From assembly GCA_963576735.1 (NCBI GenBank), contig OY755187.1, positions 16,120,001 through 16,184,000 of the forward strand: a DNA stretch of 64,000 nucleotides, given 5' to 3'. The stretch is from Bedellia somnulentella (lineage: Eukaryota > Arthropoda > Insecta > Lepidoptera > Bedelliidae). Positions 7,950 to 42,662 of this stretch are shown in pieces. The position numbers and the translations under genes are program-made. The notes below the pieces were generated by a model that was not told where the DNA came from, did no database searches, and saw nothing but the letters and a program-made list of their open reading frames with translations. How positions within the stretch are numbered: position 1 is the stretch's first letter; every line of letters begins with the position of its first letter.

Positions 7950-7999
<50 letters not shown>

Positions 8000-18433: not shown

Positions 18434-18442
18434 GTGTAATGC
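18434..18442. repeat. Left 9-bp target duplication GTGTAATGC
   Basis: Identical to 41779-41787. Extending by one base on either side breaks the match. The element then begins ACCGGTGTGAAG. If CACCGGTG is taken as the terminus instead, the duplication would be 7 bp. Confidence 0.88.
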
Positions 18443-18669
18443 ACCGGTGTGAAGTTAGCGGCCGATTCCAGCGGCCGATTATAACCCGACCAAATTAAAA
18501 AGTTTCAATATTAAAAGGTGTAAAACCAGGAATTTCAGCATCTAAGAAGCCTCATTGCCACATAAATAGCTGCATTAACACTCTAGGCCATTAACCTGCC
18601 CGAACGCGAACCTTAAACCCATGAAACAAAATGTAGAGCAGCCACCCTAGATGAATTATTAAAAACTTT
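18443..18669 (+). repeat. Left terminal tip (unique part of the arm)
   Basis: About 227 bp matching 41550-41778 in inverted orientation. By eye I find about two substitutions over the first 225 bp. It holds two direct copies of AGCGGCCGATT within the first 40 bp, the motif repeated in the array. It is the best candidate for the transposase-recognised end. Confidence 0.9.
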
Positions 18670-21600
18670 TCTGACACGAACCCAAAGCTTCTACACACCT
18701 TGAGTGTGGTATCAAAAGAACCGTATAAAATAGTTCTACAGGATGCATACCAAAATATTTTAATATGAAGAGATTTTAACCCTTCAATCGCAAGTTTAAC
18801 CCTCAGCGGCCGATTTCAGCGAAATGAATAGTTGTGATAAAATCTGTCCAAAGCTTCTACACACCTTGAATATGGTATCAAAAGAACCGTATAAAATAGC
18901 TCTACAGAATGAATACCAAAATATTTGAATATGAAGAGATTTTAACCCTTAAACCATACGATGGAGCAATTTCACGTACAAAAAAATTATAAATATTTTC
19001 TGACACGAACCCAAAGCTTCTACACACCTTGAGTATGGTATCAAAAGAACCGTATTATATAGCTCTACAGGATGCATAGCAAAATATTTTAATATGAAGA
19101 GATTTTAACCCCTCAATCCCAAGGTTAACCCTCAGCGGCCGATTTCAGCGAAATGAATAGTTGTGATAAAATCTGTCCAAAGCTTCTACACACCTTGAAT
19201 ATGGTATCAAAAGAACCGTATAAAATAGCTCTACAGAATGAATACCAAAATATTTGAATATGAAGAGATTTTAACCCTTAAACCATACGATGGAGCAATT
19301 TCACGTACAAAAAAATTATAAATATTTTCTGACACGAACCCAAAGCTTCTACACACCTTGAGTATGGTATCAAAAGAACCGTATTAAATAGCTCTACAGG
19401 ATGCATTGCAAAATATTTTAATATGAAGAGATTTTAACCCTTAAACCATACGATAGAGCAATTTCACGTACAAAAAAATGATAAATATTTTCTGACACGA
19501 ACCCAAAGCTTCTACACACCTTGAGTATGGTATCAAAAGAACCGTATTAAATAGCTCTACAGGATGCATAGCAAAATATTTTAATATGGAGAGATTTTAA
19601 CCCCTCAATCGCAAGTTAAACCCTCAGCGGCCGATTTCAGCGAAATGAATAGTTGTGATAAAATCTGTCCAAAGCTTCTACACACCTTGAATATGGTATC
19701 AAAAGAACCGTATTAAATAGTTCTACAGGATGCATAGCAAAATATTTTAATATGAAGAGATTTTAACCCCTCAATCGCAAGTTTAACCCTCAGCGGCCGA
19801 TTTCAGCGAAATGAATAGTTGTGATAAAATCTGTGCAAAGCTTCTACACACCTTGAATATGGTATCAAAAGAACCGTTTTAAATAGCGCTAGAAGATGCA
19901 TAGCAAAATATTTGAATATGAAGAGATTTTAACCCTTAAACCATACGATAGAGCAATTTCACGTACAAAAAAATTATAAATATTTTCTGACACGAACCCA
20001 AAGCTTCTACACACCTTGAGTATGGTATCAAAAGAACCGTATTAAATAGCTCTACAGGATGCATAGCAAAATATTTGAATATGAAGAGATTTTAACCCCT
20101 CAATCGCAAGTTTAACCCTCAGCGGCCGATTTCAGCGAAATGAATAGTTATGATAAAATCTGTCCAAAGCTTCTACACACCTTATATATGGTATCAAAAG
20201 AACCGTATAAAATAGCTCTACAGAATGCATACCAAAATATTTGAATATGAAGAGATTTTAACCCTTCAACCATACGATAGAGCAATTTCACGTACAAAAA
20301 AATGATAAATATTTTCTGACACGAACCCAAAGCTTCTACACACCTTGAGTATGGTATCAAAAGAACCGTATTAAATAGCTCTACAGGATGCATAGCAAAA
20401 TATTTTAATATGAAGAGATTTTAACGCCTGAATCGCAAGGTTAACCCTCAGCGGCCGATTTCAGCGAAATGAATAGTTGTGATAAAATCTGTCCAAAGCT
20501 TCTACACACCTTGAATATGGTATCAAAAGAACCGTATAAAATAGCGCTACAGAATGCATACCAAAATATTTGAATATGAAGAGATTTTAACCCTTCAACC
20601 ATACGATAGAGCAATTTCACGTACAAAAAAATGATAAATATTTTCTGACACGAACCCAAAGCTTCTACACACCTTGAGTATGGTATCAAAAGAACCGTAT
20701 AAAATAGCTCTACAGAATGCATACCAAAATATTTGAATATGAAGAGATTTTAACCCTTAAACCATACGATAGAGCAATTTCACGTACAAAAAAATGATAA
20801 ATATTTTCTGACACGAACCCAAAGCTTCTACACACCTTGAGTATGGTATCAAAAGAACCGTATTAAATAGCTCTACAGGATGCATAGCAAAATATTTTAA
20901 TATGGAGAGATTTTAACCCCTCAATCGCAAGTTTAACCCTAAGCGGCCGATTTCAGCGAAATGAATAGTTATGATAAAATCTGTCCAAAGCTTCTACACA
21001 CCTTGAATATGGTATCAAAAGAACCGTATAAAATAGCTCTACAGAATGCATACCAAAATATTTGAATATGAAGAGATTTTAACCCTTCAACCATACGATA
21101 GAGCAATTTCACGTACAAAAAAAATATAAATATTTTCTGACACGAACCCAAAGCTTCTACACACCTTGAGTATGGTATCAAAAGAATCGTATTAAATAGC
21201 TCTACAGGATGCATAGCAAAATATTTTAATATGAAGAGATTTTAACGCCGGAATCGCAAGGTTAACCCTCAGCGGCCGATTTCAGCGAAATTAATAGTTG
21301 TGATAAAATCTGTCCAAAGCTTCTACACACCTTGAATATGGTATCAAAAGAACCGTATAAAATAGCGCTACAGAATGCATACCAAAATATTTGAATATGA
21401 AGAGATTTTAACCCTTCAACCATACGATAGAGCAATTTCACGTACAAAAAAATGCTAAATATTTTCTGACACGAACCCAAAGCTTCTACACACCTTGAGT
21501 ATGGTATCAAAAGAACCGTATTAAATAGCTCTACAGGATGCATAGCAAAATATTTGAATATGAAGAGATTTTAACCCCTCAATCGCAAGTTTAACCCTCA

Positions 21601-24600
21601 GCGGCCGATTTCAGCGAAATGAATAGTTGTGATAAAATCTGTCCAAAGCTTCTACACACCTTGAATATGGTGTCAAAAGAACCGTATAAAATAGCTCTAC
21701 AGAATGAATACCAAAATATTTGAATATGAAGAGATTTTAACCCTTAAACCATACGATAGAGCAATTTCACGTACAAAAAAATTATAAATATTTTCTGACA
21801 CGAACCCAAAGCTTCTACACACCTTGAATATGGTATCAAAAGAACCGTATTAAATAGCTCTACAGGATGCATAGCAAAATATTTGAATATGAAGAGATTT
21901 TAACCCCTCAATCGCAAGTTTAACCCTCAGCGGCCGATTTCAGCGAAATGAATAGTTGTGATAAAATCTGTCCAAAGCTTCTACACACCTTGAATATGGT
22001 ATCAAAAGAACCGTATAAAATAGCTCTACAGAATGCATACCAAAATATTTGAATATGAAGAGAATTTAACCCTTCAACCATACGATAGAGCAATTTCACG
22101 TACAAAAAAAATATAAATATTTTCTGACACGAACCCAAAGCTTCTACACACCTTGAGTATGGTATCAAAAGAATCGTATTAAATAGCTCTACAGGATGCA
22201 TAGCAAAATATTTTAATATGAAGAGATTTTAACGCCGGAATCGCAAGGTTAACCCTCAGCGGCCGATTTCAGCGAAATTAATAGTTGTGATAAAATCTGT
22301 CCAAAGCTTCTACACACCTTGAATATGGTATCAAAAGAACCGTATAAAATAGCGCTACAGAATGCATACCAAAATATTTGAATATGAAGAGATTTTAACC
22401 CTTCAACCATACGATAGAGCAATTTCACGTACAAAAAAATTATAAATATTTTCTGACACGAACCCAAAGCTTCTACACACCTTGAATATGGTATCAAAAG
22501 AACCGTATTAAATAGTTCTACAGGATGCATAGCAAAATATTTGAATATGAAGAGATTTTAACCCTTAAACCATACGATAGAGTAATTTCACGTACAAAAA
22601 AATGATAAATATTTTCTGACACGAACCCAAAGCTTCTACACACCTTGAGTATGGTATCAAAAGAACCGTATTAAATAGCTCTACAGGATGCATAGCAAAA
22701 TATTTTAATATGGAGAGATTTTAACCCCTCAATCGCAAGTTAAACCCTCAGCGGCCGATTTCAGCGAAATGAATAGTTGTGATAAAATCTGTCCAAAGCT
22801 TCTACACACCTTGAATATGGTATCAAAAGAACCGTATTAAATAGTTCTACAGGATGCATAGCAAAATATTTTAATATGAAGAGATTTTAACCCCTCAATC
22901 GCAAGTTTAACCCTCAGCGGCCGATTTCAGCGAAATGAATAGTTGTGATAAAATCTGTGCAAAGCTTCTACACACCTTGAATATGGTATCAAAAGAACCG
23001 TTTTAAATAGCGCTAGAAGATGCATAGCAAAATATTTGAATATGAAGAGATTTTAACCCTTAAACCATACGATAGAGCAATTTCACGTACAAAAAAATTA
23101 TAAATATTTTCTGACACGAACCCAAAGCTTCTACACACCTTGAGTATGGTATCAAAAGAACCGTATTAAATAGCTCTACAGGATGCATAGCAAAATATTT
23201 GAATATGAAGAGATTTTAACCCCTCAATCGCAAGTTTAACCCTCAGCGGCCGATTTCAGCGAAATGAATAGTTATGATAAAATCTGTCCAAAGCTTCTAC
23301 ACACCTTGAATATGGTATCAAAAGAACCGTATAAAATAGCTCTACAGAATGCATACCAAAATATTTGAATATGAAGAGATTTTAACCCTTCAACCATACG
23401 ATAGAGCAATTTCACGTACAAAAAAATGATAAATATTTTCTGACACGAACCCAAAGCTTCTACACACCTTGAGTATGGTATCAAAAGAACCGTATTAAAT
23501 AGCTTTACAGGATGCATAGCAAAATATTTTAATATGAAGAGATTTTAACGCCTGAATCGCAAGGTTAACCCTCAGCGGCCGATTTCAGCGAAATGAATAG
23601 TTGTGATAAAATCTGTCCAAAGCTTCTACACACCTTGAATATGGTATCAAAAGAACCGTTTTAAATAGCGCTACAGAATGCATACCAAAATATTTGAATA
23701 TGAAGAGATTTAACCCTTAAACCATACGATAGAGCAATTTCACGTACAAAAAAATTATAAATATTTTCTGACACGAACCCAAAGCTTCTACACACCTTGA
23801 GTATGGTATCAAAAGAACCGTATTAAATAGCTCTACAGGATGCATAGCAAAATATTTGAATATGAAGAGATTTTAACCCCTCAATCGCAAGTTTAACCCT
23901 CAGCGGCCGATTTCAGCGAAATGAATAGTTATGATAAAATCTGTCCAAAGCTTCTACACACATTGAATATGGTATCAAAAGAACCGTATTAAATAGTTCT
24001 ACAGGATGCATACCAAAATATTTGAATATGAAGAGATTTTAACCCTTCAACCATACGATAGAGCAATTTCACGTACAAAAAAATGATAAATATTTTCTGA
24101 CACGAACCCAAAGCTTCTACACACCTTGAGTATGGTATCAAAAGAACCGTATTAAATAGCTCTACAGGATGCATAGCAAAATATTTTAATATGGAGAGAT
24201 TTTAACCCCTCAATCGCAAGTTTAACCCTCAGCGGCCGATTTCAGCAAAATGAATAGTTGTGATAAAATCTGTGCAAAGCTTCTACACACCTTGAATATG
24301 GTATCAAAAGAACCGTTTTAAATAGCGCTACAGAATGCATACCAAAATATTTGAATATGAAGAGATTTTAACCCTTCAACCATACGATAGAGCAATTTCA
24401 CGTACAAAAAAATGATAAATATTTTCTGACACGAACCCAAAGCTTCTACACACCTTGAGTATGGTATCAAAAGAACCGTATTAAATAGCTCTACAGGATG
24501 CATAGCAAAATATTTGAATATGAAGAGATTTTAACCCCTCAATCGCAAGTTTAACCCTCAGCGGCCGATTTCAGCGAAATGAATAGTTATGATAAAATCT

Positions 24601-25803
24601 GTCCAAAGCTTCTACACACCTTGAATATGGTATCAAAAGAACCGTATAAAATAGCTCTACAGAATGCATACCAAAATATTTGAATATGAAGAGATTTTAA
24701 CCCTTCAACCATACGATAGAGCAATTTCACGTACAAAAAAATGATAAATATTTTCTGACACGAACCCAAAGCTTCTACACACCTTGAATATGGTATCAAA
24801 AGAACCGTATTAAATAGCTCTACAGGATGCATACCAAAATATTTGAATATGAAGAGATTTTAACCCCTCAATCGCAAGTTTAACCCTCAGCGGCCGATTT
24901 CAGCGAAATGAATAGTTGTGATAAAATCTGTACAAAGCTTCTACACACCTTGAATATGGTATCAAAAGAACCGTATAAAATAGCTCTACAGAATGCATAG
25001 CAAAATATTTTAATATGAAGAGATTTTAACCCTTCAACCATACGATAGAGCAATTTCACGTACAAAAAAATGATAAATATTTTCTGACACGAACCCAAAG
25101 CTTCTACACACCTTGAGTATGGTATCAAAAGAACCGTTTTAAATAGCTCTACAGGATGCATAGCAAAATATTTTAATATGAAGAGATTTTAACCCCTCAA
25201 TCGCAAGTTTAACCCTCAGCGGCCGATTTCAGCGAAATGAATAGTTGTGATAAAATCTGTCCAAAGCTTCTACACACCTTGAATATGGTATCAAAAGAAC
25301 CGTTTAAAATAGCTTTACAGAATGCATAGCAAAATATTTGAATATGAAGAAATTTTAACCCTTCAACCATACGATAGAGCAATTTCACGTACAAAAAAAA
25401 AAAAAAAAAATTCTGACACGAACCCAAAGCTTCTACACACCTTGAGTATGGTATCAAAAGAACCGTATTAAATAGCTCTACAGGATGCATAGCAAAATAT
25501 TTTAATATGAAGAGATTTTAACGCCTGAATCGCAAGGTTAACCCTCAGCGGCCGATTTCAGCGAAATGAATAGTTGTGATAAAATCTGTCCAAAGCTTCT
25601 ACACACCTTGAATATGGTATCAAAAGAACCGTATAAAATAGCTCTACAGAATGCATACCAAAATATTTGAATATGAAGAGATTTTAACCCTTCAACCATA
25701 CGATAGAGCAATTTCAAATGATAAATATTTTCTGACCCGAACCCAAAGCTTCTACACACCTTGAGTATGGTATCAAAAGAACCGTATTAAATAGCTCTAC
25801 AGG
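18670..25803 (+). repeat. Left satellite array, 329-bp dimeric unit, about 22 copies
   Basis: Each unit is two related halves of about 165 bp, both starting AAAGCTTCTACACACCTTGA. Half A goes on to CTCAGCGGCCGATTTCAGCG..AAAATCTGTCC. Half B goes on to ACCATACGATAGAGCAATTT..CTGACACGAACCC. Homogenisation is visible: the variant GTTTTAAATAGCGCTAGAAG recurs 3124 bp apart (19875 and 22999), about 9.5 units. One unit has an A run replacing the usual ATGATAAATAT (25393-25410). Short open frames in every unit are by-products of repeat composition, not genes. Confidence 0.95.
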
Positions 25804-25805
25804 AA

Positions 25806-27980
25806 AGAATTGACAAAAATTTAGAAAACATTAAATCTGACGATGTTTTCCGAAAAATTAGATCTGTGGCATTAGCAATAAATGACCGCAACAAAAATGA
25901 TGTTCTTGATCTATATTTATACCAAAACGATCATCAAAATTTTGTTCAAGAGTTATCATTTCCCTTGGGCATAAAAATGTACAGCGCAAAACAAGTAAAA
26001 ATTTTAAAAAAAGTTAATGAAAAGCCTACTTTGTATTTTGATGCCACGGGTGGTGTGATAAGAAAACTTAATACAGAAACAAAAAAGATGAGAACGTTTT
26101 TGTACGCAGGTGTCATAAGTTTAAATCAAAGGATTTGCCCTATATTCTCATTTATATCGGTAAAACATGACACTAATACCATATTTAAATGCCTAAATGA
26201 CTTTAAGAATTTTTTTAAAAAAAGTAATGCCTGGCCAGTTTTTTCGGGAGTGGTAACCGATTTTTCTTTCGCATTAATTAACGCCACATGTGAAGCATTC
26301 AACAAATTAACCCTGAACCAATATTTGGAAATATGCTTCGAAGCAAAGCAAAAAAAGATACCCGAAAATATTACGCCTTTATTTCTTTGTTGTGCGCACC
26401 TTATGAAAAATATGTGCAAAGATATAGATAATAGCGATGTCGAGTGCGAAGAAAAGAAAATATTAAAAGATATGATGGCTAAATTATTTTCAGGTACAAA
26501 TTTAGCTTTTTTGGAAAATTATATTAAAAACTTATATATAATATTGCAATCCCCTTGGGTATCTCAGGATGTAGTTAATGCACAAAAATTATTTAATTCA
26601 TCGGATTCTGAAGATTTTGAGTGTGTTCGAAATTCAGATATTGCTCAATCTGGCATAAAATGTTTAAATAATGACCCTAATTATGTTAAAAGCCCCTATT
26701 ATAGACATTTTAAAGACCTTCTCGAACTCATCAATATAAATTACACACCATCTTTGTCTGTAGAACATATGAATAATTTTTATGATCCCCAGCTATTTGA
26801 GTCAATAATGATAAAATACATTCCCTACTTACCTATGTGGTGTAATATTTTTAAAAAACAACGTTTAAGTAATGCTGTCGTTGAAAATTATTTCGGTCGC
26901 CTAAAATCTATTGCATTAAATAATCAAAAAAATTTAAAACCTACACAACTGATAAGAATAATTACCCGTGAAACATCATCGCTTAGTTCCGAATTTTTAG
27001 AAAATATTGGCAAATCGCAACTTTGTAACAAAAAACACAAGATTTATAAAAAATCCAAAACTAATAGTATCATTGAAGATGAGAAGCAATGGAACCGCAA
27101 AAAAAAACCATCTAAAACCACTCATTTTACCGGTAAATACTTAAAACGATTTAAAATAGAAGAATATAAAACCGATGAAACATGTATCGTCTGTAAAGAA
27201 GGGTCACATGTTGATAAAAAAGTAACTAAATGGATAGAGTGTGGAAAATGTAGTGGATGGTTGCATGAAACGTGTGCACAATCGTTTAATAAAAAAATAG
27301 ACTTTACAAAAAAATTCATTTGCTTTTGGTGTGAAACTACAAAATCTTCAAAAAACAACTTAAAAGATGCAAAAAGTATAAGCATAATAAGCACTGAAAT
27401 ATTTAACATTAAAAATACTGTAAGACAATTGATTAAAGATGATCTAGATACATTGAATCCACCAGAATATCTTTCTAGTTTCGTCGTCGATTATGCACTG
27501 TATTTGTTAAACGAAGACGAATACTACATTTTGCCAGTTGAACAAGCATCTCACCTATATGGCCCAAATAACAAACTTGCGTCTTTTTATGACAAATTAG
27601 AATTTGAGTTAGATAAGGATATTATTTTTCCCATATGTTTAAACTCTCATTACATCCTCGTATTTTTATCTTTAACTTCAAAAGTTCTTCAAATCTATGA
27701 TCCCATGGGCAATGAATCCGTTGTAGGAAATAAAATTATTATGGAAACCAATAAACTTTTGGAAATAAAAAAGAAAAAAATACATTTCCGCAAATATGAA
27801 TCCCCGTCACATGTTTTGCAAACTGATGGCTATAATTGTGGTCCAATAATTATATCTTTTTTTGAATGCATAAAAGAGAAAAAAAATCCTACATCTAAAA
27901 TAAATTTTGATGAGTATCGTACGTTTATAAAAAATTTGATTCTTCAGAAAAGCGACGCAGTAAAGTCAAAAAAACCATGA
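25806..27980 (+). CDS. DDE transposase-PHD-Ulp1 (C48) fusion protein, 5'-truncated
   Basis: A frame of about 725 codons without stops. It has no ATG near its start: the frame runs back into the satellite to a stop at 25788-25790, and the first Met lies well inside the fold. Residues are counted from codon 25866. Candidate catalytic acids are D59 (LYFDATGG), D132 (VVTDFSF) and E340 (NAVVENYFGRLK). A C-x2-H motif (175-178, CCAH) lies between D132 and E340, as in Mutator/hAT/P-like transposases. A C4HC3 PHD finger follows (C440, C443, C459, C462, H467, C470, C486, C489). The C-terminus is a Ulp1-like cysteine protease with H595, D612, Q652 and C658 at spacings typical of C48 peptidases. It probably cuts and joins the element ends. 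PHD could read chromatin and the protease could act on SUMO-like conjugates (inference). The Cys/His-rich N-terminal part found in the decayed copy at 32826-33053 is missing here, so this copy may lack its DNA-binding region or use an unseen upstream exon. Confidence 0.9.
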   Translation, partial: RIDKNLENIKSDDVFRKIRSVALAINDRNKNDVLDLYLYQNDHQNFVQELSFPLGIKMYSAKQVKILKKVNEKPTLYFDATGGVIRKLNTETKKMRTFLYAGVISLNQRICPIFSFISVKHDTNTIFKCLNDFKNFFKKSNAWPVFSGVVTDFSFALINATCEAFNKLTLNQYLEICFEAKQKKIPENITPLFLCCAHLMKNMCKDIDNSDVECEEKKILKDMMAKLFSGTNLAFLENYIKNLYIILQSPWVSQDVVNAQKLFNSSDSEDFECVRNSDIAQSGIKCLNNDPNYVKSPYYRHFKDLLELININYTPSLSVEHMNNFYDPQLFESIMIKYIPYLPMWCNIFKKQRLSNAVVENYFGRLKSIALNNQKNLKPTQLIRIITRETSSLSSEFLENIGKSQLCNKKHKIYKKSKTNSIIEDEKQWNRKKKPSKTTHFTGKYLKRFKIEEYKTDETCIVCKEGSHVDKKVTKWIECGKCSGWLHETCAQSFNKKIDFTKKFICFWCETTKSSKNNLKDAKSISIISTEIFNIKNTVRQLIKDDLDTLNPPEYLSSFVVDYALYLLNEDEYYILPVEQASHLYGPNNKLASFYDKLEFELDKDIIFPICLNSHYILVFLSLTSKVLQIYDPMGNESVVGNKIIMETNKLLEIKKKKIHFRKYESPSHVLQTDGYNCGPIIISFFECIKEKKNPTSKINFDEYRTFIKNLILQKSDAVKSKKP

Positions 27981-28021
27981 TTAATGAATGAAACTTAATT
28001 TAAACTTTAATTTTTTATTTA

Positions 28022-28305
28022 TGAAAGTATTTGTGCTGTGTAGTGTCGGCTTAGAATAGCACTACCCCATTTCTTCCGGTGGGTGTACGTAAGAGGCGAC
28101 TAACGGTATTGGGGCTTTTAAGGGGTTTTTGGGCGATGCGGTTGGAGACCCATCACCAACAACCTTTACTTTTACCATCTTCTCCCCACTCACATTTCCA
28201 AAAGTGGCTGAGTAATTTCTAATTCCTTAGCTCTGGCTACCCCTTCTAGGGATTTACAGCCGTGAGTATATGTATGTATGTATGTATGTATGTGAAAGTA
28301 TTTGT
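28022..28305 (+). mobile_element. Full-length SINE-A nested in the foldback element
   Basis: TGAAAGTATTTGT (28022-28034 and 28293-28305) is a perfect 13-bp duplication around a 258-bp SINE-A starting GCTGTGTAGTGTCGG. It lies 42 bp after the transposase stop codon and inserted after the foldback element was in place or in a progenitor. Confidence 0.93.
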
Positions 28306-29107
28306 CGTATGAGAAATGCTGATATCATATTCAGTTTATCTGATCCAGAACCACATGACTGAAGAGTTTTTTTGAACATCGATTATTTTCACTTTGTTAC
28401 AGTTGGAATACGCTGATTCTAATTATTATACTAGAGTTGATTTTGGGAATAAAAATACTAAGGAAGAAATAAATGTTAACGCGATGAAGGTGAAAATCAA
28501 AGTTTTTCATTTTTTCAGTTATTATTTACACAAGTCAAATATCATAAACAAATCAAAAACTGAACACAGGATAGAAAAGAGTTCTTAACATTCTTCCACT
28601 CTTCAGAACTTACTGCTTCATTTTTATTGACACCTTAAGGTTCATGGCAGACCTGATTTATAATATTTTCAGTTTGGTATCCTTTTCCTGCAACATGAAA
28701 TAAGGAATTCCATCTCGACTTTAATCTATTTTGGTATTTTACCTATGAAATTAATTCATATGTATTATTGTCACCACACAAACTTTGTGAAAAAGCTCAA
28801 AAGTTAATCGTATTTTTAGTTTGGCCATTTTTTCTGCCTTGATTTATATGAATAAGTCTAGAGAAGTTCGTCCAAGAATTTATAAAAATAACATATACTG
28901 GTTATAAATATTTTACACACCGTGAATTGCGAAAAAACAAAAACCCAAAGAAGAACTATAGACTAAACTAAAAAGAGACTCGAAACAAACTTCTTAATAA
29001 ATCAAGCTTTGCTTTCCAGTTTAAGCTTTTAACTACTTTACTGGTAAAATAATTACAGAGTACAAAAAAGTTATTGTATCAGTATTACTAACTCTTATAC
29101 AATTTAG
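28306..29107. other. Foldback interior without recognised gene
   Basis: A pyrimidine-rich stretch ending TTTGTTACAG (28392-28401) resembles a splice acceptor and is followed by a short open frame ('LEYADSNYYTRVDFGNKN..') to 28588. I do not recognise a family; it could be a terminal exon or chance. Confidence 0.3.
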
Positions 29108-29400
29108 ACTGCTTCCGTGGTCTCAGGTTCGATCCCGGGGGTAAACTCATAAATTTAATTTGTAAGATCTAACCCAGTATGGAAGTATATTGCAGGCTTG
29201 AGTCACCTGATTATCCGAAATTCGAGATGATTCCTTGCTTTGGAGGGCACGTTAAGCCGTCAGTCCCGGCTACTATTACAGTAGTAGTCGTTAGTCTGCT
29301 AACCCGCAATTGGCCAGCAGCGTGGTGGACTAAGGCGGAATCACTTTATATAGGGTAGGCTCCAGCCCCTTGGTGGGGACATATATAGGCTCTGTGAGGA
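29108..29400 (+). mobile_element. Lepidopteran-type SINE ('CACGTTAAGCCGT' family), nested in the foldback element
   Basis: A B-box-like GGTTCGATCCCGGG near the start, then ATTCCTTGCTTTGGAGGGCACG, TTAAGCCGTCAGTCCCGGCT, CAGCGTGGTGGACTAAGGC and CCAGCCCCTTGGTGGGGAC. This body is, from memory, typical of widespread moth and butterfly SINEs. The A-box end is degraded and no target duplication is obvious. Confidence 0.75.
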
Positions 29401-30544
29401 TACAAATTGATATTTAAAAAGTCTTGAAAAAGTTTACTTCTGTTTACGTCTGTCTCCGAAATAATAACATTGGTATCATTACCATAATCTTCCATTGATA
29501 TCTTTATGTTACTTGTCATGTAACTAACAATATAATATATTGAGTAAATAATTAAAAAAAATCCTAAAATTAAAACTTGGGGTTTACTCTTATTTATTCT
29601 TAATATTTTAGATTAAGAAAGAAATAAATTAATTTACATAGATTTAACTGTAAGTTGTTAAAGAAAAGACAAATTATTTTTCACACCTGAATCGTTTAAT
29701 TCCAACCAATTGGTACCTTTTAGTTTGTTCAACAGGATAGCAAATGATGGGTCTATAAACAACATACTCAAAGTTTGTTAAAGTTTTGTGTAGATTTTTA
29801 AATCTCTATAAAACACTTGTTTTAACATGCTCAAGAATAATAGAAGATAAAGCTTTATTACACAAATGATTTATTATATAATCAGTTTGCCATGCAAAGT
29901 CAGAAAATTTTGGCATACATGGTGAAGCACTTAAATTCATACTGTTCGGGTCAGATACAGAGAGTGCAAATCCATAACACCATATCACCTGGATCTCATG
30001 TAAAAATATTTTATTTCGCAGGGTGTTGTTTTGGGCTAATTTTTATTTTGGGCATATCTTAATGATTTTACATACATGGTCGAAGGCGTGTTCGAGTGAG
30101 TATTATTTGCTGATGATATTCCTTTACTCTTTGATGTTTAAAGAAATGAAAAGAAAGTGGTCGAGGTTATTAGCACGTTTTCACAGATTAGGTTGCTTGG
30201 TTTGCTTCCAATGATCCTGATCATTGCAGATCATTGCTGATGATGAATGAATTTGCTTCAATGTCCAAATAAGGCAAACGTTTTAAATTTCCATCATCCA
30301 TCGTGAAGAGTGTTGATAATGAAATGTTAGTATTTTCGGATGACGCAGTTTTCTTAGGTTTGAATCCGAGCTCTAAAAGTGTGACCCACATAAAATCACT
30401 AGCTGGCAGGCTAAGTAATACTGCGTATGCAAATACAGTTTATTGAAGCTATTTTAATATTTTTTAATTTTTTATGGTAATATTGGTTAGAGGTTATTCT
30501 TTAATTTATTAATGCAAAATATAAATTAGTTACTACTCCAAAAA
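29401..30544. other. Foldback interior, unrecognised
   Basis: Short frames at 29806-29988 (-) and 30023-30214 (+) have no motif I can name. They may be remains of a cargo gene. Confidence 0.3.
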
Positions 30545-30910
30545 AAAAACAAGCCAGGTATATAATTTTTCTGAAAATTTCTAAGTCATTTAATCATGTT
30601 TTACCGATATAAATGAGAATACGAGGCAAATTCTTTGATTTACACTTTGTTTTCTTTTTGTTTCTGTATTTATTTTTTCACGATACCACCCGTGGCATCA
30701 AAATATTAGAAGCTTCTCAATCACTCTTTTTTAATTTGTTTTGCGCTGTTTGACTTTGTTTTTATTTCTTTTGTGTATTCATTAGTAAACAAAAGAAATG
30801 ATATTATTATATTTATATATATTTTACAAATACTAACACTACATACAAATATTATAAAATTCTTTTTTTGTGGGTTTGCATAGTCCATAGGTATAGTTTT
30901 GGGGTTTTCT
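30545..30910 (-). pseudogene. Third, highly decayed copy of the foldback transposase gene
   Basis: 30545-30780 follows 32365-32640 (around the CATGTTTTACCGAT, TTTTTGTTTCTGTATT and ACCACCCGTGGCATCAAAAT boxes, the last encoding the first catalytic D region). 30810-30905 follows 33035-33120. The stretch between is deleted. Many small indels; no reading frame. Confidence 0.75.
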
Positions 30911-30930
30911 CATTATTCACATTTTTTTTT

Positions 30931-33110
30931 CCAAATTTCATTGATTTCTATTATAACTTTATTTCTTACAACGGATTCATTGCCCCACTTGCCATAATTA
31001 TAGCCTTTAGTTTGCGAAACATTTGACGGGGATTCATATTTGCGGAAATGTATTTTTTTCTTTTTTATTTCCAAAATTTTATTGGTTTCCATAATAACTT
31101 TATTTCCTAGAACGGATTCATTTCCCATGGGATCATAGATTTGAAGAACTTTTGAAGTTAAAGATAAAAATACGAGGACGTAATGAGAGTTTAAACATAT
31201 GGGAAAAATAATTTCCTTATCAAAATCAAATTCTAATTTGTCATCAAAAGACGCAAGTTCGTTATTTGGGCCATATAGGTGAGATGCTTGCTCAACTGGC
31301 AAAATGTAGTATTCATCTTCGTTTAACAAATACAGTGCATGATCGACGACGAAACTAGAAAGATATTCTGGTGGATTTAACGTAACTAGATCATCTTTGT
31401 TCAATTGTCTTACAGTATTTTTAATATTAAATATTTCAGTGCATATTATGCTAATACTTTTTGCATCTTTAAAGTTGTTTTTTGAAGATTTTGCAGTTTC
31501 ACACCGAAAGCAGATGAATTTTTTTGTAATGTCTATTTTTTATTAAACGATTGTGCACACGTTTTATGCAACCATCCACTTCATGTTCCACACTCTATCC
31601 ATTTAGTTAATTTTTATCAACTTGTGACCCTTCTTTACAGACGATACATGTTTCATCGGTTTTATATTCTTCTATTTTAAATCGTTTTAAGTATTTACCA
31701 GTAAAATGAGTGGTTTTAGATGGTTTTTTTTGCGGTTCCATTGCTCTTCATCTTAAATGATACTTTTAGTTTTGGATTTTTTATAAATCTTGTGTTTTTT
31801 GTAACAAAGTTGCCATTTGCCAATATTTTTTAAAAACTTGGAACTAAATGATTATTCTTAAAAATTGTGCAGTTTTTTTTTTTATTATTTAATGCAATAG
31901 ACTTTAAGCGACTGCAATAATTTTCAAAAGTAACATAATGAGGGTCATTATTTAAAGATTTTATGTCAGATTGAGCAACATCTGAATTTCGAACACTCTC
32001 AAAATCTTCAGAATCCGATGAATTAAATAATTTCTGTGCATTAACTACATCCTGAGATACCCAAGGGGATTGTAATATTTATATATAAGTTTTTAATATA
32101 ATTTTCCATAAAAGCTAAATTTGTACCTAAAAATAATTTAGCCATCATATCTTTCAATATTTTCTTTTCTTCGCACCTGACATTGCTATTATTAATATTT
32201 TTGTCCATATTTTTCATAATGTGTGCACAACAAAGAAATAAAGGCGTAATATTTTTTGGTATCTTTGCTTGGAGCATATTTCCAAATATTGGTTCAGGGT
32301 TAATTTGTTGAATGCTTCACATGCGGCGTTTATTAATGCGAAAGAAAAATCGGTTACCACTCCCGAAAAACGGGCCAGGCATTACTTTTTTCAGAAAATT
32401 TCTTAAAGTCATTTAGGCATTTAAATATGGTATTAGTGTCATGTTTTACCGATGTAAATGAGAATAAAGGGCAAATCCTTTGATTTAAACTTATGACACC
32501 TGCGTACAAAAACGTTCTCATCTTTTTTGTTTCTGTATTAAGTTTTCTCATAACACCACCCGTGGCATCAAAATACAAAGCAGCTTTTCATTAACCTTTT
32601 TTCAAATTACTATTTGTATTGCGCTGTACATTTTTATGCACAAGGGAATTTTCATGATCGTTTTGATATAAATATAGATCAAGAACATCATGTTTGTTGC
32701 GGTAATTTATGGCTAATGCCTCAGATCTATTTTTTCGGAAAACATCGTCAGATTTAATGTTTTCTAAATTTTTGTCAATTTTTAGTTTTTTGCCTTATTC
32801 ACAGACTTCAGTTGTTTTTGGTTAATTATAAAAGATTTTTCGTGCAAAAGTTGGTTTTTAGTATATTTTTTTCAATCTCTCTCACTTGATTTGTACACAT
32901 TTCATTGTGACAAAAATTCTCACTTTCGCTTAGTACCGTGACTTTCGTATGTTTAATTTTATTTTTAAATGACTTACAATGTTGTTGCTTGCATCTAGCA
33001 GTAACAATTATTTCTTTATTTTTTAGATATTTAACATTTTTAAATACTAACAAACAAGTATTATTAAAATTCTTATTTATAAGTTTGCGTAGTGCATAAG
33101 TATAGTTAGG
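30931..33110 (-). pseudogene. Second copy of the transposase-PHD-Ulp1 gene, inverted and inactivated
   Basis: Mirrors 25806-27980 over its whole length with frameshifts and stops in the transposase and PHD parts (for example the PHD region at 31490-31640 and the C-x2-H region at 32205-32235). The protease part is still open (30913-31404). His and Asp of the triad are kept ('NSHYVLVF', 'IYDPMGN'), but the Cys box reads GYNYG instead of GYNCG and then jumps back to a repeat of 'GNESVV', so the nucleophile is lost. It extends further 5' than copy 1. At 32826-33053 it encodes 'CKQQHCKSF' and a downstream C/H pair (ENFCHNEM), plausibly the N-terminal zinc-binding DNA-recognition domain. Confidence 0.9.
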
Positions 33111-33389
33111 TGTTTAGTTTATTGTTTTGGTTGAACATATTATCGTATACTAAGGGATCAATTGTGGATTCACCTTCTTTTTATGCATTTTTTGATTTAG
33201 ACAAGTTTGCTGCGTTTTGAGTTTATTTTGGTATTATAAGCATTGAGTTTTCTCAACTGGATATCCAAACCACTAAAAGAGGAATGGAGAGGAAGGAATT
33301 GCTTAAGGGTCTTTTTTATTATCAAGATGATGGTCAATTGGTCTTGTGATGTCTATTCACCATTAGACCATTTTTGAGTTTCTTTTACA

Positions 33390-33550
33390 AAATGATGATG
33401 ATCATTTTGACATAGATACAGATTTAAAATAATCTTTTTTGTTGAGGTCATTGCTGATGCCTCAGACCTGATTTTTGAAAACCTTAGACATTATTGATTA
33501 TAATATATTAAAAGTGTCGCCTTATTTGCAGACATCAGTTATTTCACTCA
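33390..33550 (-). pseudogene. Fourth fragment of the transposase gene (N-terminal region)
   Basis: TTTTGACATAGATACAGAT, GCTGATGCCTCAGACCTGAT and TTGCAGACATCAGTT parallel 32660-32820 of the second copy. Degenerate, no frame. Confidence 0.65.
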
Positions 33551-33637
33551 ACTATAAACGTTCGTCGTAACAAAAAATATATCAATTATTTTCAGTTCGT
33601 CACCGCTGAACTGGTTGTTGTAATTTTATTTCCTGAA

Positions 33638-33722
33638 CTAGTTGACCCGACAGAATTCGTACTGTAAATTTGCTTATGCTAAACTTTAGGCATTTGTTCC
33701 GATATATCTAAGCTCAATCAGA
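33638..33722 (-). mobile_element. Helitron-2 3' end at the inner edge of the right arm
   Basis: CTAG at 33638-33641, then GTTGACCCGACAGAATTCGTA, matching 59551 onward and the 3' end of the copy at 6675-6937. It stops abruptly where the satellite array begins (33723). Confidence 0.7.
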
Positions 33723-36700
33723 CTCTTCATATTCAAATATTTTGCTATGAATCCTGTAGAACTATTTTATACGGTTCTTTTGATACCACACTCAAGGTGT
33801 GTAGAAGCTTTGGGTTCGTGTCAGAAAATATTTATCATTTTTTTGTACGTGAAATTGCTCTATCGTATGGTTGAAGGGTTAAAATCTCTTCATATTCAAA
33901 TATTTTGCTATGCATTCTGTAGAGCTATTTAATACGGTTCTTTTGATACCATACTCAAGGTGTGCCGAAGCTTTGGGTTCGTGTCAGAAAATATTTATAA
34001 TTTTTTTGTACGTGAAATTGCTCTATTGTGTGATTGAAGGGTTAAAATCTCTTCATATTCAAATATTTTGGTATGCATTCTGTAGAGCTATTTTATACGG
34101 TTCTTTTGATACCATATTCAAGGTGTGTAGAAGCTTTGGACAGATTTTATCACAACTATTAATTTCGCTGAAATCGGCCGCTGAGGGTTAACCTTGCGAT
34201 TGAGGGGTTAAAATCTCTTCATATTAAAATGTTTTGCTATGCATCCTGTAGAGCTATTTAATACGGTTCTTCTGATACCATACTCAAGGTGTGTAGAAGC
34301 TTTGGGTTCGTGTCAGAAAATATTTATAATTTTTTTGTACGTGAAATTGCTCTATTGTGTGATTGAAGGGTTAAAATCTCTTCATATTCAAATATTTTGG
34401 TATGCATTCTGTAGAGCTATTTTATACGGTTCTTTTGATACCATATTAAAGGTGTGTAGAAGCTTTGGACAGATTTTATCACAACTATTCATTTCGCTGA
34501 AATCGGCCGCTGAGGGTTAAACTTGCGATTGAAGGGTTAAAATCTCTTCATATTAAAATATTTTGGTATGCATCCTGTAGAACTATTTTAAACAGTTCTT
34601 TTGATACCACACTCAAGGTGTGTAGAAGCTTTGGGTTCGTGTCAGAAAATATTTATCATTTTTTTGTACGTGAAATTGCTCTATCGTATGGTTGAAGGGT
34701 TAAAATCTCTTCATATTCAAATATTTTGGTATGCATCCTGTAGAACTATTTAATACGGTTCTTTTGATACCATACTCAAGGTGTGTAGAAGCTTTGGGTT
34801 CGTGTCAGAAAATATTTATCATTTTTTTGTACGCGAAATTGCTCTATCGTATGGTTGAAGGGTTAAAATCTCTTCATATTAAAATATTTTGGTGTGCATT
34901 CTGTAGCGCTATTTTATACGGTTCTTTTGATACCATATTCAAGGTGTGTAGAAGCTTTGGACAGATTTTATCACAACTATTCATTTCGCTGAAATCGGCC
35001 GCTGAGGGTTAACCTTGCGATTGAGGGGTTAAAATCTCTTCATATTAAAATGTTTTGCTATGCATCCTGTAGAGCTATTTAATACGGTTCTTTTGATACC
35101 ATACTCAAGGTGTGTAGAAGCTTTGGGTTCGTGTCAGAAAATATTTATAATTTTTTTGTACGTGAAATTGCTCTATTGTGTGATTGAAGGGTTAAAATCT
35201 CTTCATATTCAAATATTTTGGTATGCATTCTGTAGAGCTATTTTATACGGTTCTTTTGATACCATATTGATGGTGTGTAGAAGCTTTGGACAGATTTTAT
35301 CACCCTTATTCATTTCGCTGAAATCGGCCGCTGAGGGTTAAACTTGCGATTGAGGGGTTAAAATCTCTTCATATTAAAATATTTTGCTATGCATCCTGAA
35401 GAACTATTTTATACGGTTCTTTTGATACCACACTCAAGGTGTGTAGAAGCTTTGGGTTCGTGTCAGAAAATATTTATCATTTTTTTGTACGGGAATATGC
35501 TCTATCGTATGGTTGAAGGGTTAAAATCTCTTCATATTAAAATATTTTGCTATGCATTCTGTAGAGCTATTTAAAACGGTTCTTTTGATACCATATTCAA
35601 GGTGTGTAGAAGCTTTGGACAGATTTTATCACAACTATTCATTTCGCTGAAATCGGCCGCTGAGGGTTAACCTTGCGATTGAGGGGTTAAAATCTCTTCA
35701 TATTAAAATGTTTTGCTATGCATCCTGTAGAGCTATTTAATACGGTTCTTTTGATACCATACTCAAGGTGTGTAGATGCTTTGGGTTCGTGTCAGAAAAT
35801 ATTTATAATTTTTTTGTACGTGAAATTGCTCTATTGTGTGATTGAAGGGTTAAAATCTCTTCATATTCAAATATTTTGGTATGCATTCTGTAGAGCTATT
35901 TTATACGGTTCCTTTGATACCATATTCAAGGTGTGTAGAAGCTTTGGACAGATTTTATCACAACTATTCATTTCGCTGAAATCGGCCGCTGAGGGTTAAA
36001 CTTGCGATTGAGGGGTTAAAATCTCTTCATATTCAAATATTTTGGTATGCATCCTGTAGAACTATTTTATACGGTTCTTTTGATACCATACTCAAGGTGT
36101 GTAGATGCTTTGGGTTCGTGTCAGAAAATATTTATAATTTTTTTGTACGTGAAATTGCTCTATTAAGTGATTGAAGGGTTAAAATCTCTTCATATTCAAA
36201 TATTTTGGTATGCATTCTGTAGAGCTATTTTATACGGTTCCTTTGATACCATATTCAAGGTGTGTAGAAGCTTTGGACAGATTTTATCACAACTATTCAT
36301 TTCGCTGAAATCGGCCGCTGAGGGTTAAACTTGCGATTGAGGGGTTAAAATCTCTTCATATTCAAATATTTTGGTATGCATCCTGTAGAACTATTTTATA
36401 CGGTTCTTTTGATACCATACTCAAGGTGTGTAGAAGCTTTGGGTTCGTGTCAGAAAATACTTATAATTTTTTTGTACGTGAAATTGCTCTATTGTGTGAT
36501 TGAAGGGTTAAAATCTCTTCATATTCAAATATTTTGGTATGCATTCTGTAGAGCTATTTTATACGGTTCCTTTGATACCATATTTAAGGTGTGTAGAAGC
36601 TTTGGACAGATTTTATCACAACTATTCATTTTGCTGAAATCGGCCGCTGAGGGTTAAACTTGCGATTGAAGGGTTAAAATCTCTTCATATTAAAATATTT

Positions 36701-39700
36701 TGCTATGCATCCTGTAGAACTATTTTATACGGTTCTTTTGATACCACACTCAAGGTGTGTAGAAGCTTTGGGTTCGTGTCAGAAAATATTTATCATTTTT
36801 TTGTACGTGAAATTGCTCTATCGTATGGTTGAAGGGTTAAAATCTCTTCATATTAAAATATTTTGCTATGCATTCTGTAGAGCTATTTAAAACGGTTCTT
36901 TTGATACCATATTCAAGGTGTGTAGAAGCTTTGGACAGATTTTATCACAACTATTCATTTCGCTGAAATCGGCCGCTGAGGGTTAACCTTGCGATTGAGG
37001 GGTTAAAATCTCTTCATATTAAAATATTTTGCTATGCATCCTGTAGAGCTATTTAATACGGTTCTTTTGATACCATACTCAAGGTGTGTAGAAGCTTTGG
37101 GTTCGTGTCAGAAAATATTTATATTTTTTTTGTACGTGAAATTGCTCTATTGTGTGATTGAAGGGTTAAAATCTCTTCATATTCAAATATTTTTGTATGC
37201 ATTCTGTAGAGCTATTTTATACGGTTCCTTTGATACCATATTCAAGGTGTGTAGAAGCTTTGGACAGATTTTATCACAACTATTCATTTCGCTGAAATCG
37301 GCCGCTGAGGGTTAAACTTGCGATTGAAGGGTCAAAATCTCTTCATATTAAAATATTTTGGTATGCATCCTGTAGAACTATTTTATACGGTTCTTTTGAT
37401 ACCACACTCAAGGTGTGTAGAAGCTTTGGGTTCGTGTCAGAAAATATTTATCATTTTTTTGTACGTGAAATTGCTCTATCGTATGGTTAAAGGGTTAAAA
37501 TCTCTTCATATTCAAACATTTTGCTATGCATTCTGTAGAGGTATTTTATACGGTTCTTATGATACCATATTCAAGGTGTGTAGAAGCTTTGGACAGATTT
37601 TATCACAACTATTAATTTCGCTGAAATCGGCCGCTGAGGGTTAAACTTGCGATTGAGGGGTTAAAATCTCTTCATATTCAAATATTTCGGTATGCATCAT
37701 GTAGAACTATTTTATACGGTTCTTTTGATACCATATTCAAGGTGTGTAGAAGCTTTGGACAGATTTTATCACAACTATTCATTTCGCTGAAATCGGCCGC
37801 TGAGGGTTAACCTTGCGATTGAGGGGTTAAATTCTCTTCATATTAAAATGTTTTGCTATGCATCCTGTAGAGCTATTTAATACGGTTCTTTTGATACCAT
37901 ACTCAAGGTGTGTAGAAGCTTTGGGTTCGTGTCAGAAAATATTTATAATTTTTTTGTACGTGAAATTGCTCTATTGTGTGATTGAAGGGTTAAAATCTCT
38001 TCATATTCAAATATTTTGGTATGCATTCTGTAGAGCTATTTTATACGGTTCTTTTGATACCATATTCAAGGTGTGTAGAAGCTTTGGACAGATTTTATCA
38101 CAACTATTCATTTCGCTGAAATCGGCCGCTGAGGGTTAACCTTGCGATTGAGGGGTTAAAATTTCTTCATATTCAAATATTTTGCTATGCATCCTGTAGA
38201 GCTATTTAATACGGTTCTTTTGATACCATACTCAAGGTGTGTAGAAGCTTTGGGTTCGTGTCAGAAAATATTTATCATTTTTTTGTACGTGAAATTGCTC
38301 TATCGTATGGTTGAAGGGTTAAAATCTCTTCATATTAAAATATTTTGCTATGCATTCTGTAGAGCTATTTAATACGGTTCTTTTGATACCATATTCAAGG
38401 TGTGTAGAAGCTTTGTACAGATTTTATCACAACTATTCATTTCGCTGAAATCGGCCGCTGAGGGTTAAACTTGCGATTGAGGGGTTAAAATCTCTTCATA
38501 TTCAAATATTTTGGTATGCATCCTGTAGAGCTATTTAATACGGTTCTTTTGATACCATATTCAAGGTGTGTAGAAGCTTTGGGTTCGTGTCAGAAAATAT
38601 TTATCATTTTTTTGTACGCGGAATTGCTCTATCGTATGATTGCAGGGTTAAAATCTCTTCACATTAAAATATTTTGGTATGCATCCTGTAGAACTATTTA
38701 ATACGGTTCTTTTGATACCACACTCAAGGTGTGTAGAAGCTTTGGGTTCGTGTCAGAAAATATTTATCATTTTTTTGTACGTTTAATTGCTATATTGTGT
38801 GATTGAAGGGTTAAAAGCTCTTCATATTCAAATATTTTGGTATGCATCCGGTAGAACTATTTAATACGGTTCTTTTGATACCACACTCAAGGTGTGTAGA
38901 AGCTTTGGACAGATTTTATCACAACTATTCATTTCGCTGAAATCGGCCGCTGAGGGTTAAACTTGCGATTGAAGGGTCAAAATCTCTTCATATTAAAATA
39001 TTTTGGTATGCATCCTGTAGAACTATTTTATACGGTTCTTTTGATACCACACTCAAGGTGTGTAGAAGCTTTGGGTTCGTGTCAGAAAATATTTATCATT
39101 TTTTTGTACGTGAAATTGCTCTATCGTATGGTTAAAGGGTTAAAATCTCTTCATATTCAAACATTTTGCTATGCATTCTGTAGAGGTATTTAAAACGGTT
39201 CTTTTGATACCATATTCAAGGTGTGTAGAAGCTTTGGACAGATTTTATAACAACTATTCATTTCGCTGAAATCGGCCGCTGAGGGTAAACCTTGCGATTG
39301 AGGGGTTAAAATCTCTTCATATTCAAATTTTTTGCTATGCATCCTGTAGAGCTATTTAATACGGTTCTTTTGATACCATACTCAAGGTGTGCAAAAGCTT
39401 TGGGTTCGTGTCAGAAAATATTTATAATTTTTTTGTACGTGAAATTGCTCTATTGTGTGATTGAAGGGTTAAAATCTCTTCATATTCAAATATTTTGGTA
39501 TGCATTCTGTAGAGCTATTTTATACGGTTCTTTTGATACCATATTCAAGGTGTGTAGAAGCTTTGGACAGATTTTATCACAACTATTAATTTCGCTGAAA
39601 TCGGCCGCTGAGGGTTAAACTTGCGATTGAAGGGTTAAAATCTCTTCATATTAAAATATTTTGGTATGCATCCTGTAGAACTATTTTATACGGTTCTTTT

Positions 39701-41549
39701 GATACCACACTCAAGGTGTGTAGAAGCTTTGGGTTCGTGTCAGAAAATATTTATATTTTTTTGTACGTGAAATTGCTCTATCGTATGGTTGAAGGGTTAA
39801 AATCTCTTCATATTCAAATATTTTGGTATGCATCCTGTAGAACTATTTAATACGATTCTTTTGAGACCATACTCAAGGTCTGTAGAAGCTTTGGGTTCGT
39901 GTCAGAAAATATTTATAATTTTTTTGTACGTTAAATTGCTATATTGTGTGATTGAAGGGTTAAAAGCTCTTCATATTAAAATATTTTGGTATGCATTCTG
40001 TAGAGCTATTTAAAACAGTTTTTTTAATACCATATTCAAGGTGTGTAGAAGCTTTGGACAGATTTTATCACAACTATTCATTTCGCTGAAATCGGCCGCT
40101 GAGGGTTAAACTTGCGATTGAGGGGTTAAAATCTCTTCATATTCAAATATTTCGGTATGCATCATGTAGAACTATTTAATACGGTTCTTTTGATACCATA
40201 CTCAAGGTGTGTAGAAGCTTTGGACAGATTTTATCACCACTATTCATTTCGCTGAAATCGGCCGCTGAGGGTTAACCTTGCGATTGAGGGGTTAAAATCT
40301 CTTCATATTCAAATATTTTGCTATGCATTCTGTAGAGCTATTTAAAACGGTTCTTTTGATACCATACTCAAGGTGTGTAGAAGCTTTGGGTTCGTGTCAG
40401 AAAATATTTATCATTTTTTTGTACGTGAAATTGCTCTATCGTATGGTTGAAGGGTTAAAATCTCTTCATATTAAAATATTTTGGTATGCTTTCTGTAGAG
40501 CTATTTAATACGGTTCTTTTGATACCATACTTAAGGTGTGTAGAAGCTTTGGACAGATTTTATCACAACTATTCATTTCGCTGAAATCGGCCGCTGAGGG
40601 TTAACCTTGCGATTGAGGGGTTAAAATTTCTTCATATTCAAATATTTTGCTATGCATCCTGTAGAGCTATTTAATACGGTTCTTTTGATACCATACTCAA
40701 GGTGTGTAGAAGCTTTGGGTTCGTGTCAGAAAATATTTATCATTTTTTTGTACGTGAAATTGCTCTATCGTATGGTTGAAGGGTTAAAATCTCTTCATAT
40801 TAAAATATTTTGCTATGCATTCTGTAGAGCTATTTAATACGGTTCTTTTGATACCATATTCAAGGTGTGTAGAAGCTTTGTACAGATTTTATCACAACTA
40901 TTCATTTCGCTGAAATCGGCCGCTGAGGGTTAAACTTGCGATTGAGGGGTTAAAATCTCTTCATATTCAAATATTTTGGTATGCATCCTGTAGAGCTATT
41001 TAATACGGTTCTTTTGATACCATATTCAAGGTGTGTAGAAGCTTTGGGTTCGTGTCAGAAAATATTTATCATTTTTTTGTACGCGGAATTGCTCTATCGT
41101 ATGATTGCAGGGTTAAAATCTCTTCACATTAAAATATTTTGGTATGCATCCTGTAGAACTATTTAATACGGTTCTTTTGATACCACACTCAAGGTGTGTA
41201 GAAGCTTTGGGTTCGTGTCAGAAAATATTTATCATTTTTTTGTACGTTTAATTGCTATATTGTGTGATTGAAGGGTTAAAAGCTCTTCATATTCAAATAT
41301 TTTGGTATGCATCCGGTAGAACTATTTAATACGGTTCTTTTGATACCACACTCAAGGTGTGTAGAAGCTTTGGACAGATTTTATCACAACTATTCATTTC
41401 GCTGAAATCGGCCGCTGAGGGTTAAACTTGCGATTAAAGGGTTAAAATCTCTTCATATTAAAATATTTTGGTATGCATCCTGTAGAACTATTTTATACGG
41501 TTCTTTTGATACCATACTTAAGGTGTGTAGAAGCTTGGGGCTCATGTCA
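33723..41549 (-). repeat. Right satellite array, 329-bp dimeric unit, about 24 copies, inverted
   Basis: Reverse complement of the left array. Besides the common B-half variant (CGTATGGTTGAAGG) it holds many units with TTGTGTGATTGAAGG, which I do not see in the left array. Larger duplications are visible: the block at 38187-38960 recurs at 40652-41425 (shift 2465 bp, about 7.5 units) and 37318-37500 recurs at 38963 onward (shift 1645 bp, 5 units). The arms are therefore homogenised mainly within themselves. Confidence 0.95.
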
Positions 41550-41778
41550 GAAAAGTTTTTAATAATTCATCTAGGGTGGCTGCTCTACATTTTGTTTCAT
41601 GGGTTTAAGGTTCTCGTTCGGGCAGGTTAATGGCCTAGAGTGTTAATGCAGCTATTTATGTGGCAATGAGGCTTCTTAGATGCTGAAATTCCTGGTTTTA
41701 CACCTTTTTATATTGAAACTTTTTAATTTGGTCGGGTTATAATCGGCCGCTGGAATCGGCCGCTAACTTCACACCGGT
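41550..41778 (-). repeat. Right terminal tip (unique part of the arm)
   Basis: Inverted partner of 18443-18669, ending CTTCACACCGGT. Confidence 0.9.
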
Positions 41779-41787
41779 GTGTAATGC
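41779..41787. repeat. Right 9-bp target duplication GTGTAATGC
   Basis: Partner of 18434-18442; continues directly into the SINE-A sequence CGACTTAGAAT. Confidence 0.88.
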
Positions 41788-42485: not shown

Positions 42486-42606
42486 TCTATACTTATAATA
42501 AATCAGTAGAGAGGTCAATTCTGTACATTAAATATATTTTCAAAATAACTATCAGAGGGTGATTAGTGATCGATACTGATGCCAAAAATGCAATCAGTAA
42601 AATTTT

Positions 42607-42662
<56 letters not shown>

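Follow-up and report, generated by a model that had tools for sequence, protein, structure and literature searches.

Satellite DNA has been widely suspected of arising inside transposons. The closest described counterpart of the element reported here is Rehavkus, a Repbase group placed as a sister or an early branch of the Mutator-like elements (MULEs), and described as having a 9-bp target-site duplication, a transposase with a PHD finger and a minisatellite near the 3′ end (PMC6446971, PMC10218199). Its representative Rehavkus-1_TC, from the beetle Tribolium castaneum, is reported to span 9.5 kb and to carry the 164-bp satellite TCsat23 in its inverted termini, mostly as five and eight monomers (PMC6446971, PMC10218199). 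Here we describe a 23,336-bp element (positions 18443–41778) within a stretch of 64,000 nt from Bedellia somnulentella (assembly GCA_963576735.1, contig OY755187.1, positions 16,120,001–16,184,000, forward strand), hereafter the window, which is probably a single cut-and-paste transposon of Rehavkus type, within the Mutator class, with a foldback architecture. As far as the published descriptions go, it shares with Rehavkus the 9-bp duplication, the PHD finger and a satellite in the inverted ends (163/166 bp versus the 164 bp of TCsat23), and the named relatives of its protein are, like the host of Rehavkus-1_TC, beetles. Conversely, Rehavkus-1_TC has few monomers in 9.5 kb, whereas our element contains 43 plus 47 monomers in 23.3 kb, organized in A/B dimers, and has its gene duplicated into the arms. 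A 2026 survey that covered the MULEs of 4,268 arthropod genomes and took Rehavkus as the outgroup gives 1,875–9,972 bp for complete elements and, in its text, 13–1,193 bp for terminal repeats, which reach 1,527 bp in a single row of a table (PMC13359780); our element is therefore more than twice as long as the longest complete element reported there.

Other transposons resemble this element in part. Tetris, from Drosophila virilis, is described as a foldback element with an outer flanking domain, tandem repeats of ca. 220 bp, an inner domain and 8–9-bp duplications, and it seeds satellite arrays; however, it is non-autonomous, its own transposase was not found and its terminal repeats reach up to 1,735 bp (PMC4079207). 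Galileo, from the P superfamily, has long terminal repeats whose tandem repeats hold transposase-binding sites and that have recruited internal sequence, but it is reported to differ in its P-type transposase with a THAP domain, terminal repeats of up to ca. 1.25 kb and 7-bp duplications (PMC3688188, PMC3573991). In Tm1 (Mutator/Foldback, from Meloidogyne) and Phantom, a MULE transposase likewise lies within composite tandem-repeat termini flanked by 9-bp duplications, although the units are of ca. 14 bp, the N-terminus is of the FLYWCH type and the main text of the report mentions neither PHD nor ULP1 (PMC3169594). Long inverted repeats (ca. 700 bp in FB4) and 9–10-bp duplications are described for FB4/FB-NOF from Drosophila (PMC8277862). 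Finally, Ulp1 and PHD are found attached to transposases in Ginger1 and in Ulp1-bearing Mutators, with Ulp1 in those from hydra, lancelet and plants, but Ginger1 has terminal repeats of 44–270 bp and a DDE domain of the Gypsy-integrase type (PMC2836005).

The Element Was Inserted Once, as a Unit

Both ends of the element start with ACCGGTGTGAAGTTAGCGGCCGATTCCAGCGGCCGATT, with the tip sequence ACCGGTGTGAAG... at position 18443 and its reverse complement at 41778, and ACCGGTGTG is confined to these two ends. The outer tip domains, which are not satellite (left, 18443–18675, plus strand; right, 41546–41778, minus strand), are identical over their first 69 bp and show only two mismatches across the 233 bp that lie outside the arrays (231/233). 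A perfect 9-bp direct repeat, GTGTAATGC, occupies positions 18434–18442 and 41779–41787, immediately outside the tips. A preliminary description of this DNA had proposed both the inverted tips and the 9-bp direct repeats, and the comparison of the flanks showed that the latter are a true duplication. A copy of a dispersed repeat of ca. 258 bp forms the right flank, and the left flank joined to one GTGTAATGC and to the right flank reads ...TGCCGTGTAATGCCGACTTAGAATGTC..., which is the 5′ end of that repeat. Several copies in the window match the joined flanks without interruption (698–455, reading ...TTGCCGTGTAATGCCGGCTAAGAATGTC...; 47722–47881; 9779–9535; 14806–14550; and 4520–4778), from a total of 30 aligned pieces that includes the self-match and short pieces, those starting further in being uninformative on the junction. 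Because the joined flanks align unbroken with these paralogous empty sites, the duplication of GTGTAATGC is real and both tips derive from a single insertion, which occurred near the 5′ end of the dispersed repeat. Elsewhere in the window (left part, centre and right part), neither the tips nor the satellite had a match in Blast comparisons at E 0.01, and the exact 19-bp tip pattern had no matches in viral contigs.

The Arms Are Arrays of a Dimeric Satellite

Inward from the tips, Tandem Repeats Finder (TRF) identified arrays of a 329-bp unit at 18682–25804 (21.7 copies) and 33723–41536 (23.8 copies), of 7.1 and 7.8 kb and in opposite orientation, in agreement with the satellite arms of the preliminary description. 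The 329-bp unit is a dimer of a 166-bp monomer (A) and a 163-bp monomer (B), ca. 79% identical to each other, that alternate with an occasional AA or BB; TRF also yielded 163/166-bp period rows for both arrays. Monomers were delimited with an anchor scan and counted from anchor to anchor (n = 90). The left array (18669–25804, plus strand) contains 43 monomers, 21 A and 22 B, and the right array (33723–41554, minus strand) contains 47, 22 A and 25 B; the 43 A monomers are of 166 bp and the 47 B monomers of 163 bp, with three exceptions among the latter (153 bp in one and 162 bp in two). These array lengths are those of one assembled sequence, and their exact sizes are uncertain. In all, ca. 20.2 of the 23.3 kb are within the inverted arms, including unpaired stretches.

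Mean identity among A monomers was 0.970 within the left arm, 0.958 within the right arm and 0.959 between arms, with corresponding values of 0.963, 0.941 and 0.945 for B monomers. For 74.9 of the 90 monomers (ties shared), the nearest relative was located in the same arm, versus 44.1 ± 5.3 in 500 label shuffles, none of which reached 74.9. Additionally, there are exact internal duplications of 903 bp in the right arm and 724 bp in the left arm; the longest exact match between arms is of 247 bp, and monomers L38, R04, and R19 are identical. Together, the own-arm nearest relatives, the within-arm duplications and the shared identical monomers suggest that each arm grows mainly by itself, with some exchange of sequence between arms. 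When 160-bp segments of the left arm were compared with the right arm, the best identity was 0.994 for the tip (one segment), a mean of 0.976 for the satellite (44 segments; this is a best-of-many value and hence biased upward) and 0.795 for the gene part (12 segments; indels are here scored as differences).

The tips and the A monomers share a motif. Sequence GCGGCCGATT is present in 43/43 A monomers, in 0/47 B monomers and twice in each tip (at 18458 and 18471 in the left one, and as its reverse complement at 41754 and 41741 in the right one). Likewise, there are 23 occurrences of CGGCCG in the left arm and 24 in the right arm, tips included, and three in the remaining window. The 12-mer CAGCGGCCGATT is common to tip and unit, and among 500 dinucleotide shuffles of the tip, two shared at least 12 bp with the unit, in either strand. 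As the terminal-repeat monomers of Galileo are described as holding transposase-binding sites (PMC3688188), so CGGCCG would be the likeliest candidate for such a site here.

The Inverted Repeat Includes Two Defective Transposase Gene Copies

The inverted repeat runs inward past the arrays, where 25804–26688 pairs with 32783–31931 (91.0% identity) and 26881–27841 pairs with 31927–30992 (91.8%), leaving an unpaired centre of 3.15 kb (27842–30991). A transposase-like gene inside the element was part of the preliminary description; this sequence in fact consists of two copies in inverted orientation, neither of them complete, and both belong to the arms. The left copy (25791–27980, plus strand) has 729 codons from stop to stop, with the first ATG at 25974, and comprises the DDE core, a PHD finger (amino acids 465–514) and an Ulp1/C48 protease (amino acids ca. 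540–721). Full-length relatives also have an N-terminal zinc-like domain and a C-terminal zinc finger, both of which are missing here: the left copy begins at residue ca. 341 of relative P0001 and stops short of the relatives' last zinc finger. The right copy (30992–33113, minus strand) is decayed, with frame changes, stops and deletions, and has a Tyr at the position of the C48 catalytic Cys (GYNYG versus GYNCG in the left copy), and it is the only one with a remnant of the N-terminal zinc-like domain, which presumably binds DNA (32856–33104, minus strand; 50% over 84 amino acids in a tblastn comparison with P0001). The two copies are 93.6% identical, ungapped, in a local alignment of 2,166 columns, 306 of them gapped. 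Since the left copy is truncated at both ends and the right copy is broken, this copy of the element probably moves only in trans, and is most likely now non-autonomous. The A/B dimers, the second gene copy in the inverted repeat and the defects of both copies go beyond the preliminary description.

The centre contains additional short duplicated fragments of the transposase gene (30505–30985, minus strand) and a nested copy of the ca. 258-bp repeat (28033–28293, plus strand), which is flanked on both sides by its own GAAAGTATTT direct repeat and, therefore, entered the element later. This dispersed repeat has many copies in the window and ends in a TATG tail; the GAAAGTATTT direct repeat of the nested copy makes it look like a small retroelement.

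The Encoded Protein and Its Relatives

The encoded protein combines a DDE core, a PHD finger and an Ulp1-type protease. In an alignment of 17 sequences (alignment A4), D84 is invariant and D157, C200 and H203 are conserved in at least 90% of the sequences; as expected of a MULE/IS256 transposase, there is a C-x-x-H motif (CCAH) between the second D and the E, with VENYFG in the window protein. The Cys/His pattern of its PHD finger, a feature that is also described for Rehavkus, aligned with that of relatives in which the Pfam match exceeds the cut-off (P0009, for example, with E 7e-8), and a PHD structure in the PDB was matched with E 0.001.

We found 31 protein relatives in searches that each scored only the ca. 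8,000 candidates sharing most words; six of the 31 are named, all of them from beetles, and none is labeled as Rehavkus, although only these six carry any name. A YqaJ nuclease domain is present in 13 of the 31, and in P0011, P0017, and P0018 the PHD, YqaJ nuclease and Ulp1 protease domains are all above the Pfam cut-off and in one chain with the DDE core, which possibly represents an undescribed family architecture. A literature search that left most subscription papers and Repbase Reports outside its scope found neither a description of a PHD-YqaJ-Ulp1 transposase nor a satellite-armed MULE in Lepidoptera; YqaJ is, however, named in two publications on PHIS/Harbinger elements. Pattern matches in viral contigs (10 stretches with the protein query and 33 with the alignment query) and in bacterial or archaeal genome contigs (seven stretches) yielded no confirmed relatives. 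Foldseek comparisons with viral models gave four matches at E ≤ 0.001, the top one being an uncharacterised bracovirus protein (E 4e-7, root-mean-square deviation (rmsd) 25, TM 0.22–0.28). A single-sequence AlphaFold2 model of the left protein was discarded (mean pLDDT 33).

Other Repeats in the Window

A dispersed element of ca. 600 bp with a (TGTC)n tract is present in three copies that are 89–96% identical (7830–8434, 42485–43100 and 59398–58797); it resembles the (GTCY)n miniature inverted-repeat transposable elements described from Lepidoptera (PMC9659126), and is compatible with a moth or butterfly host. The flank of one of these copies (59550–59591) matches, over 42 bp (93%), a segment at the inner end of the right arm that lies immediately beyond the satellite (33637–33677). 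By eye, open frames at 12716–13741 (plus strand), 3423–4013 (plus strand), and 54550–55029 (minus strand) resemble reverse-transcriptase fragments from non-long terminal repeat (non-LTR) retrotransposons, and a frame of 385 amino acids (61870–63027, plus strand) resembles an ORF1-like non-LTR retrotransposon protein with a PHD-type zinc finger and a coiled coil. Additionally, a 110-bp unit is repeated 1.8 times, with 93% identity, at 44423–44621.

Classification and Alternative Explanations

The long inverted terminal repeats built from tandem repeats are those of a foldback element, and it is well supported that this is a DNA transposon of foldback design, with arms of satellite DNA and a DDE protein of several domains. 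The preliminary description was right in this, but the FB-NOF and Phantom elements to which it linked the design are probably not the closest ones, because the 163/166-bp unit, the 9-bp duplication and the PHD finger match the description of Rehavkus. Several observations weigh against a Rehavkus-type, Mutator-class transposon. The window protein matches the Pfam MULE and PHD domains only below their cut-offs (for PF10551, 14.2 bits, and 19.5 for relative P0021, with a cut-off of 27.6; for PHD, E 0.018), and in structure comparisons ISCth4 and the P element were tied (less than 1 apart in Z) with a high rmsd, while Hermes (hAT) was also retrieved by Foldseek (E 0.008–0.012). The fold thus fails to separate MULE from P or hAT, and what points to the MULE class is the 9-bp duplication together with the C-x-x-H motif and the Pfam MULE matches, which are sub-threshold. 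Likewise, dN/dS between the gene copies is 0.68 over 606 codons (Fisher p 0.07), without clear past constraint; binding to CGGCCG is a guess from the position of the motif; and we saw no second copy of the element in the window, so that the case for mobility comes from a single insertion and the paralogous empty sites. Lastly, of the whole inverted repeat only the 233-bp tip fits the published range of 26–400 bp for Rehavkus terminal repeats, since it continues for 7–8 kb of satellite and ca. 2 kb of gene. As the match to Rehavkus is, moreover, one to its published description, we call the element Rehavkus-like rather than a proven member.

It is unlikely that the element belongs instead to the Foldback/FB-NOF or Phantom groups and that its unit length and PHD finger resemble those of Rehavkus by convergence. 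The long inverted repeats and 9–10-bp duplications reported for FB4 and the tandem-repeat termini and 9-bp duplications of the Phantom-like Tm1 would agree with such a placement (PMC8277862, PMC3169594), as would a sub-threshold match (E 0.06) between relative P0002 and the ZSWIM1-3 RNase-H-like domain. Conversely, the repeats described for Tm1 are of ca. 14 bp, and it is the described Rehavkus that the 163/166-bp unit and the PHD finger fit. FB repeat units are also short, unlike the monomers found here. No FLYWCH or SWIM finger appeared in the Pfam lists of the 19 of 31 relatives scanned (E limits 0.1, 0.05, and 0.01), from which distant forms could escape, and the Phantom group as published includes members with neither.

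Much less probable is that two neighbouring or nested elements are involved, or a recombinant of two copies from different sites. The inverted gene copies are 6–9% apart and have different deletions, and chimeric copies of Galileo are known, but these are reported as bounded by different 7-bp sequences (PMC3573991), whereas here the 9-bp duplication is perfect, the tips are nearly identical, ACCGGTGTG is present only at the two ends and the restored paralogous site largely refutes this explanation. Long near-palindromes and tandem arrays assemble poorly, and we have only one assembled sequence; nevertheless, a fold-back or chimeric read that created the mirror image, or mis-sized arrays, is scarcely credible, as a fold-back read would yield nearly identical arms and these differ in monomer number (43 versus 47), monomer order and gene-copy deletions.

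A Possible History of the Arms

A Rehavkus-like foldback transposon could have acquired its present form in several steps. An intact family member elsewhere would have supplied the transposase, whose N-terminal zinc-like domain would bind the tip, with CGGCCG as the best candidate site, and the presence of this motif in each A monomer would turn each arm into a long ladder with secondary sites for binding. Unequal exchange or segmental duplication inside each arm may account for the lengthening of the arrays, and some sequence may have passed from one arm to the other. The transposase gene would have been drawn into the arms by an inverted duplication of the internal sequence, a kind of recruitment recorded for the terminal repeats of Galileo (PMC3573991), and its two copies would later have decayed differently. 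More speculatively, the element may be a near-complete palindrome with a working satellite nursery in its arms, and its relatives an undescribed transposase family with the domain order zinc-like, DDE, PHD, YqaJ nuclease, Ulp1 and zinc finger; we consider this joint proposal possible, if rather doubtful. Amplification inside an arm and copying from one arm to the other would multiply the monomers with binding sites, mutual correction of the two inverted gene copies would be conceivable, and the element would spread ready-made arrays throughout the genome.

The described elements used for comparison hold few repeats in short ends, as with the mostly five and eight monomers of TCsat23 or the ends of Tetris, which reach 1,735 bp at most. 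The single insertion reported here contains two facing arrays with a total of 90 monomers, beside a yardstick of unique sequence, the two gene copies, so that growth within arms, exchange between arms and gene decay can be measured together in a single object. The element also draws attention to a family of multi-domain insect transposases with PHD, Ulp1 and a YqaJ nuclease, the last of these in 13 of the 31 relatives. The transposon itself has the appearance of a disabled and exceptionally large relative of Rehavkus, a known group that has been little studied, and is a good natural example of satellite growth inside a mobile element.

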